Shown piece by piece: positions 22,047 to 23,402 of a stretch of 64,000 bases of DNA. A program made the translations under genes and the position numbers. The DNA comes from an uncultured Parvularculaceae bacterium (lineage in GTDB: Bacteria > Pseudomonadota > Alphaproteobacteria > Caulobacterales > Parvularculaceae): contig CAMYLZ010000008.1 in assembly GCA_947259375.1 (NCBI GenBank), positions 62,001 to 126,000 on the forward strand, written 5' to 3'. Numbering within the stretch: the stretch's first letter is position 1; each line of letters starts with the position of its first letter. A model generated the notes under the pieces. That model did not search any database and was not told the DNA's origin. It worked only from the letters and a program-made list of their open reading frames with translations.

Positions 22047-22316
22047 ATGGCGCGTGTCGAGTTCACCGACAATTTGCAAAAGCATTTAGCCTGCCCGCCG
22101 ATGACGGCGCCAGGCGGAACAGTTCGCGCAGTGCTGGACGCTATATTCGAAGAAAACACAACCTTGCGCTCTTATCTCCTCGACGACCAGGGACGGCTGC
22201 GCAAACACGTCAACATCTTCATCAATGGTGAAATGATCCGGGACTGCTCGAACCTGAGCGATCCGGTTGCGGATAACGACCGCGTTTTCGTCTTTCAGGC
22301 TTTATCGGGAGGATAA
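22047..22316 (+). CDS. MoaD/ThiS-like ubiquitin-fold protein
   Basis: An 89-residue beta-grasp protein ending in Gly-Gly (FQALSGG), as in sulfur carriers MoaD and ThiS. The fold pattern is visible: strand VEFTDNL, helix TVRAVLDAIFEE, strands HVNIFINGEMI, and DNDRVFVFQALSGG. These proteins are activated at the C-terminal Gly by an E1-like enzyme and carry sulfur as thiocarboxylate, or in some cases modify proteins. No moaE, thiG, moeB or other E1 partner is nearby. Instead it lies 3 bases before an Asp-box propeller gene, with which it is probably co-translated. Its acceptor is unknown. Confidence 0.82.
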   Translation: MARVEFTDNLQKHLACPPMTAPGGTVRAVLDAIFEENTTLRSYLLDDQGRLRKHVNIFINGEMIRDCSNLSDPVADNDRVFVFQALSGG

Positions 22317-22319
22317 TCC

Positions 22320-23402
22320 ATGAGTGATGTTTTCTACGTTGCAAGCCGCAAAGGGCTCTTCACCTATCGCCGCGATGGCGCGGACTGGGTCTCAGGCGCA
22401 CCGGCGTTTTTGGGCGAGCCGGTCAGCGCAGTCCTGAAGGACAAACGCGACGGCGCGCTCTACGCCGCGCTCAATCTCGGCCATTTTGGCGTAAAGCTGC
22501 ACCGCTCCGATGATGATGGCGCCAGTTGGAAAGAGCTTCCGGCGCCCGCCTTCGCCAAATCTGCGGATGGCGACGAAAACGCGCCATCGGTCGAACTGGT
22601 CTGGACGCTTGCGGCTGGCGGCGCTGACGAGCGAGACGCCATTTGGGCCGGAACCATTCCAGGCGCCCTCTTTCGCAGCGATGACCGAGGCGAAAGCTGG
22701 AAACTGATCGATTCGCTTTGGAACCAGCCTGAACGGCAGGGCTGGTTCGGCGGCGGCTACGACAATCCCGGCATCCATTCTGTCCTTGTAGATCCAAGGG
22801 ACAGCGCCAAGCTGACGCTCGGCGTTTCATGCGGCGGCATCTGGAAAAGCGATGACCGTGGCGTTTCATGGCGGCTTGCCGGCCGAGGACTGCGGGCGGC
22901 GTTCCTGCCGCCTGAACAGACAAACGATCTGAACACTCAAGATCCGCATCGCCTGGCCTTATGCAAAAGCGCCCCCGACACGATCTGGTGCCAGCACCAT
23001 AATGGCGTCTTTCTGTCACGCGATGGCGCAGACACATTCGAGGAAATCCGGGACATACCGCCAGCCGTATTCGGCTTTGCTGTCGCCGCGCATCCGAATG
23101 ATCCTGACACGGCATGGCTTGTGCCCGGCGTCAAGGATGAATGCCGCGTGCCGGTCGATGGAAAACTCATCGTCAACAAGACCATTGATAGCGGCAAAAC
23201 ATTTTTCGCAATGTGTGACGGCCTGCCGCAAACGCCATCATATGACCTTGTCTACCGCCACGCACTGGACGTCGATGAAACGGGCGCCAGGCTCGCCATG
23301 GGATCGACCACCGGCAATCTGTGGGCAAGCGACGATGGCGGGCAAAAATGGCGGGCGCTAAGCAGGCATCTGCCGCCTGTCTCGCAGGTTGCATTCGGCT
23401 AG
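22320..23402 (+). CDS. Asp-box (BNR/sialidase-type) beta-propeller protein
   Basis: A 360-residue protein with six Asp-box motifs of the S/T-x-D-x-G-x-x-W/F type: SDDDGASW, SDDRGESW, SDDRGVSW, SRDGADTF, TIDSGKTF and SDDGGQKW. This points to a six-bladed propeller as in sialidases and sortilin-like VPS10 domains. No signal peptide is present, so it should be cytoplasmic, unlike true exosialidases. I see no FRIP motif and no clear Arg triad, so glycosidase activity is not supported. It directly follows the MoaD/ThiS-like gene, a pairing that suggests joint function. Function unknown. Confidence 0.8.
   Translation: MSDVFYVASRKGLFTYRRDGADWVSGAPAFLGEPVSAVLKDKRDGALYAALNLGHFGVKLHRSDDDGASWKELPAPAFAKSADGDENAPSVELVWTLAAGGADERDAIWAGTIPGALFRSDDRGESWKLIDSLWNQPERQGWFGGGYDNPGIHSVLVDPRDSAKLTLGVSCGGIWKSDDRGVSWRLAGRGLRAAFLPPEQTNDLNTQDPHRLALCKSAPDTIWCQHHNGVFLSRDGADTFEEIRDIPPAVFGFAVAAHPNDPDTAWLVPGVKDECRVPVDGKLIVNKTIDSGKTFFAMCDGLPQTPSYDLVYRHALDVDETGARLAMGSTTGNLWASDDGGQKWRALSRHLPPVSQVAFG

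Follow-up and report, generated by a model that had tools for sequence, protein, structure and literature searches.

A gene for a small ubiquitin-like protein (Ubl) and a gene for a beta-propeller protein occur together as a conserved two-gene unit in five or more bacterial phyla, a conclusion that is well supported by the distribution of the two genes. The unit probably works by passing sulfur, or the Gly-Gly tail of the Ubl, to a conserved pocket of the propeller. The pair lies in a 64,000-nucleotide stretch of DNA from an uncultured Parvularculaceae bacterium with relatives close to Marinicaulis, the whole of which is referred to here as the window (Table 1).

Table 1 Features of the Ubl–propeller pair in the window
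Feature	Positions	Strand	Description
Ubl gene	22047-22316	+	89 aa; ThiS/MoaD superfamily beta-grasp protein, CysO/SAMP1-like; ends QALSGG (VFVFQALSGG)
Codons of the conserved Ubl tail QALSGG	22296-22313	+	exact C-terminal GG in 100/107 Ubls
Propeller gene	22320-23402	+	360 aa; Asp-box (BNR) beta-propeller of the 3b7f / YP_299179.1 family; cytoplasmic; seven blades per PMC2716378

Re-reading of the open reading frames showed that the coordinates, the Gly-Gly end and the 3-base gap between the Ubl stop and the propeller start, as given in an earlier sequence-only reading, are all exact. The gap had been taken as a sign of co-translation. It is present in the window, where both frames are on the plus strand, but it is not conserved: elsewhere the two genes overlap or lie up to tens of bases apart, and other clades have them in the opposite order. 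Within positions 22308-22322 the terminal Gly-Gly codons, GGA GGA, also resemble a Shine-Dalgarno site ahead of the propeller start. Judging from their translations, the genes flanking the pair are radA, a cvpA-like gene, purF, a gene for an Lrp-type regulator (minus strand), a gene for a LysE-type exporter and valS. No E1, MoaE or ThiG gene adjoins the pair among these neighbours, and PADLOC gave no match that would link the locus to anti-phage defence.

The Ubl is a member of the ThiS/MoaD superfamily. It matches the Pfam family ThiS (PF02597) at 36.7 bits (cut-off 22.5, 6.3e-9), the predicted model of a close relative's Ubl has a beta-grasp-type order of strands and helices, and the protein ends in Gly-Gly. 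The best NCBIfam model is SAMP1 (NF041918, an equivalog), which scores 54 bits, under its curated cut-off of 60, and matches 12 out of 12 Ubls of the alignment. The solved sequences nearest to the Ubl are 4n6e_B (ThiS/MoaD family) and mycobacterial CysO (3dwg), with SAMP1 further down.

The sequence-only reading had let its proposal stand or fall with the conservation of Gly-Gly. We found GG at the exact C-terminus of 100 of the 107 Ubls, against 1.8% of the open reading frames in the same loci. The tails diverge before the final SGG or AGG (QALSGG, TAISGG, GAIAGG, PAVSGG), and because 15 different combinations of Gly codons are used, the Gly-Gly is conserved at the protein level. The ending as a by-product of a Shine-Dalgarno sequence was ruled out, since any Gly codons may be used and Ubls encoded downstream of the propeller retain GG just as well. 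Seven Ubls lack an exact GG end: that of Nonomuraea ends in PALA, one runs on in frame (L198), and the rest go on for 1–18 residues past GG, two of them (L026 and L179) being from the same genome. At L198 the Ubl gene (...LLPAVSGG), which immediately follows the propeller gene on the reverse strand, has no stop and reads on in frame into a TypA/BipA-like GTPase (..VRDDIRNIAIIAHVDHGKTT); the two may be naturally fused, share a start region or have been joined by faulty assembly. Two loci from one genus (L110, 5654-6049, and L146, 5729-6049) encode Ubls with 17 residues past SGG (KTWPIALxPEPARDCSS) that overlap the start of the propeller; at L146 there is also a TGA within the propeller frame.

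The partner protein scores above the Pfam cut-offs for BNR/BNR_6. All six of the Asp boxes attributed to it can be read directly in the translation (SDDDGASW, SDDRGESW, SDDRGVSW, SRDGADTF, TIDSGKTF and SDDGGQKW), and its N-terminus, MSDVFYVASRKG, is not signal-peptide-like, which agrees with the earlier view that it carries no signal peptide. A model of the propeller from a 74%-identical relative has PDB 3b7f (Reut_B4987) as its top fold match (E 5.4e-33, 30% identity); other structural relatives are Ycf48, DAIP and sortilin. The propeller-family profile matches 3b7f at 356 bits over profile positions 5–359. The 3b7f protein, YP_299179.1, was described by Quistgaard and Thirup as a functionally uncharacterised seven-bladed Asp-box propeller (PMC2716378). 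Based on homology over the full length and on the invariant residues described below, the propeller of the pair belongs to the 3b7f / YP_299179.1 family.

Public records name such gene pairs "MoaD/ThiS family protein" and "exo-alpha-sialidase", the second of which we regard as a misannotation. The sialidase motif [FY]RIP is absent from the propeller sequence, the nearest string being CRVP, and the closest family is seven-bladed and not six-bladed. A GH33 sialidase is thus rejected, and the sequence, on which alone the triad was judged, agrees with the earlier statement that the protein has no sialidase Arg triad. A GH74 xyloglucanase was also ruled out, given a single propeller of 360 aa versus two tandem seven-bladed propellers.

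The distribution of the pair was drawn from genome and plasmid collections, where the two genes are neighbours in Alpha-, Beta- and Gammaproteobacteria, Acidobacteriota, Verrucomicrobiota, Bacteroidota and Actinomycetota. Among 241 alphaproteobacterial genomes, 43 match the propeller profile and 35 the Ubl profile (E <= 1e-10), and 34 of these 35 Ubls adjoin a propeller directly (Fisher p 6.6e-32, with significance overstated because genomes were taken as independent). The sole exception (G080) looks like a classical sulfur-relay context, since the Ubl is followed by an open reading frame that reads as rhodanese-like and no propeller is nearby. The propeller is present in 25 out of 299 genomes of a phylum-wide sample, 51 out of 149 Acidobacteriota genomes, 3 out of 145 genomes of the Verrucomicrobiota sample and 7 out of 247 of the Bacteroidota sample; the Ubl adjoins it in nine of ten further cases from the last two. 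The propeller occurs in about one-sixth of the sampled Alphaproteobacteria and one-third of the sampled Acidobacteriota. In two distant propellers of halophilic archaea that were checked, there was no annotated Ubl neighbour. Recurrence of both the Gly-Gly ending and the adjacency in different phyla puts the pairing far beyond chance. A pairing confined to close relatives would have refuted the sequence-only reading; instead the two genes keep together as a functional unit well beyond these, across several phyla and in both gene orders.

A Pseudomonas aeruginosa plasmid bears both genes (L048, 7711-9107) under the labels quoted above. One locus has two propeller paralogues (L019, 3367-4221 and 5001-6116) with a single Ubl between them, and in one Acidobacteriota genome (G633) the propeller is present three times. 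A few loci that are unrelated to one another (L197, L199, L140, L048 and L155) encode YCII-domain proteins close to the pair, at L197 between the propeller and the Ubl.

An adjacent Ubl accompanies 107 of the 124 propellers, upstream in 58 cases and downstream in 49, and the other 17 have none. In a propeller tree from a quick search, which includes some long branches, the genes with an upstream Ubl form one well-supported clade of 51 rows, one of them without a detected Ubl, and those with a downstream Ubl make up most of the remainder. Eight Acidobacteriota have another upstream arrangement, with PAVSGG-type tails. Eleven Rhodobacterales-type rows (L147, L152, L159-L165, L053 and L054) form a single Ubl-less clade next to the downstream-Ubl genes and keep all invariant residues; at L053 the propeller adjoins the ergothioneine genes egtB/egtD. 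We read the tree as an ancestral coupling of Ubl and propeller with one larger loss and a few sporadic losses. Distances among Ubls correlate with those among propellers for the upstream type (r = 0.59, permutation maximum 0.30) and the downstream type (r = 0.88, maximum 0.19), in a mirror-tree test that still includes shared species history. Within the genus of the window, 7 of 24 genomes match the pair, one with merely a 28%-identical homologue, and in a relative that lacks it (G013) the Lrp gene directly follows purF. This patchiness and the purF–Lrp junction point to frequent gain and loss.

No third conserved gene was found by neighbour clustering or by a Pfam tally of 96 flanking open reading frames, picked heuristically and not by a gene finder, in which the commonest families account for 3 of the 96. 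Nor is there a recurring substrate- or sulfur-metabolism neighbour at the pair loci, and these flanks contain no recurring gene of E2, JAB or ligase type. The propeller is consequently the only candidate acceptor in the unit.

On another contig, the genome of the window encodes its one E1, a MoeB-like protein of 252 aa that has CxxC motifs but lacks a rhodanese domain. The Ubl, previously described as an orphan, is accordingly one at its locus but not genome-wide, and the same holds for all 33 pair-bearing genomes searched, each of which has an E1; two plasmid-only records have none. The presence of E1 is weak evidence, as E1 genes are widespread among bacteria and occur in 11 of 14 control genomes. 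In mycobacteria, one E1, MoeZR, serves MoaD1, MoaD2 and CysO (PMC3227635), and from the CysO/MoeZ precedent an E1 elsewhere in the genome is expected. The genome also has two further ThiS-family genes, one of them a conventional moaD beside moaE.

Five propeller residues, K11, H210, Q225, H227 and R313, are 100% invariant across all groups, the Ubl-less clade included, and two are nearly so (H153, 94%; S170, 98%). From predicted secondary structure (starts of inner strands and B–C turns) and propeller topology, rather than coordinates, we infer that the invariant residues surround the channel on a single face of the propeller, with the Asp-box turns on the opposite one. The resulting pocket is basic and His-rich.

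These features suggest a scheme in which the Ubl is a sulfur carrier of the CysO/SAMP1 type, charged in trans by MoeB, and the propeller is the acceptor enzyme, a reading that we hold with nearly as much belief as doubt. MoeB, the only E1 of the genome, would adenylate the C-terminal Gly of the Ubl, which would then be converted to a thiocarboxylate. The flexible ALSGG tail may be presented to the seven-bladed propeller at its conserved K/H/S/Q/R face. In the pocket there, a small-molecule or protein substrate would receive the sulfur or the activated carboxyl. In AlphaFold models of fused chains from two relatives, made by reading through the stop between the genes with an 11- or 16-residue linker, the domains are confident and the placement of the Ubl on the propeller is not (pTM 0.76 and 0.75). 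Against the carrier scheme, the Rhodobacterales-type clade keeps the invariant residues without an adjacent Ubl, a few Ubls have residues past GG, and that of Nonomuraea has no GG. The wider proposal of a horizontally dispersed sulfur-transfer system, with a dedicated, MoeB-charged Ubl that feeds a propeller enzyme, which would be the first propeller to accept a Ubl thiocarboxylate, is put forward more cautiously, with somewhat more doubt than belief.

The conserved pocket could also serve binding alone. If the Ubl were a regulatory or structural subunit, its tail would plug or complete the pocket and would never be adenylated. The propeller has Ycf48, DAIP and sortilin as structural relatives, its basic, His-rich pocket would suit a carboxylate, and the exact GG end has been lost in some Ubls. 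D1, including its C-terminal tail, attaches to Ycf48 at an Arg patch and on the outer surface (PMC10403576). This precedent makes binding of the Ubl tail by the propeller plausible but does not show it, and in Ycf48 the tail of D1 runs around the exterior of the propeller and does not enter the channel (PMC10403576). The strict SGG/AGG over divergent tails is, moreover, the signature of E1 substrates, and we consider a purely non-covalent subunit unlikely. Conjugation of the Ubl to proteins in the manner of SAMP1, with the propeller as target, ligase-like adaptor or deconjugase, would be in line with the match of SAMP1 to all aligned Ubls and with a MoeB-type E1 in trans, yet we judge it improbable. 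No E2-, JAB- or ligase-like gene accompanies the pair, the only Prok-JAB match in the genome of the window reads as RadC, which speaks against a reversible modifier, and one dedicated partner gene suits an acceptor enzyme better than broad modification. That the Ubl is a spare carrier for molybdopterin or cysteine synthesis beside an unrelated propeller, as its place in the MoaD/CysO superfamily might suggest, is very improbable and largely refuted by the phyletic and gene-order data, given the genome's own moaD beside moaE, the retention of the pair, and of no third gene with it, across several phyla and in either order, and the mirror-tree correlation.

Ubl/E1 chemistry supplies sulfur for cofactors and thiosugars, cysteine and tRNA thiolation, and also serves protein modification. 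A widespread and compact module of Ubl and propeller, as preferred here, points to a further outlet of this chemistry, and it provides a functional lead for the structural-genomics orphan 3b7f, whose relatives carry sialidase annotation. As the unit consists of two genes and is found in culturable soil bacteria, the question is directly testable. The two-gene unit appears undescribed, whereas its components are known superfamilies. A 2006 survey of prokaryotic Ubls makes no mention of sialidase, BNR or propeller, and we found no published account of such a system in a literature search with most subscription journals outside reach, nor papers on the P. aeruginosa pair under guessed locus tags.

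Compared with known systems, the propeller shares the Asp-box architecture of GH33 sialidases, which, unlike it, are six-bladed with [FY]RIP. Ycf48/HCF136 is likewise a seven-bladed Asp-box propeller in which a conserved basic patch binds a partner protein and a C-terminal tail, but it is only 12–16% identical, photosystem-specific and located in the thylakoid lumen. The likeness to 3b7f comprises a whole-length profile match, the same invariant residues and a single uninterrupted propeller; that protein was described as a structure only (PMC2716378), with no Ubl partner reported in the literature found. With the archaeal ubiquitin-like modifier SAMP1 the Ubl has in common the GG tail and the best, though sub-cut-off, family model (54 versus 60). 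The mycobacterial CysO–CysM–Mec+ pathway differs in that neither CysM nor the Mec+/JAB protease recurs beside the pair, whose partner is a beta-propeller; it resembles the unit in having a beta-grasp carrier that ends in GG and a shared MoeB/MoeZ-type E1 in trans.
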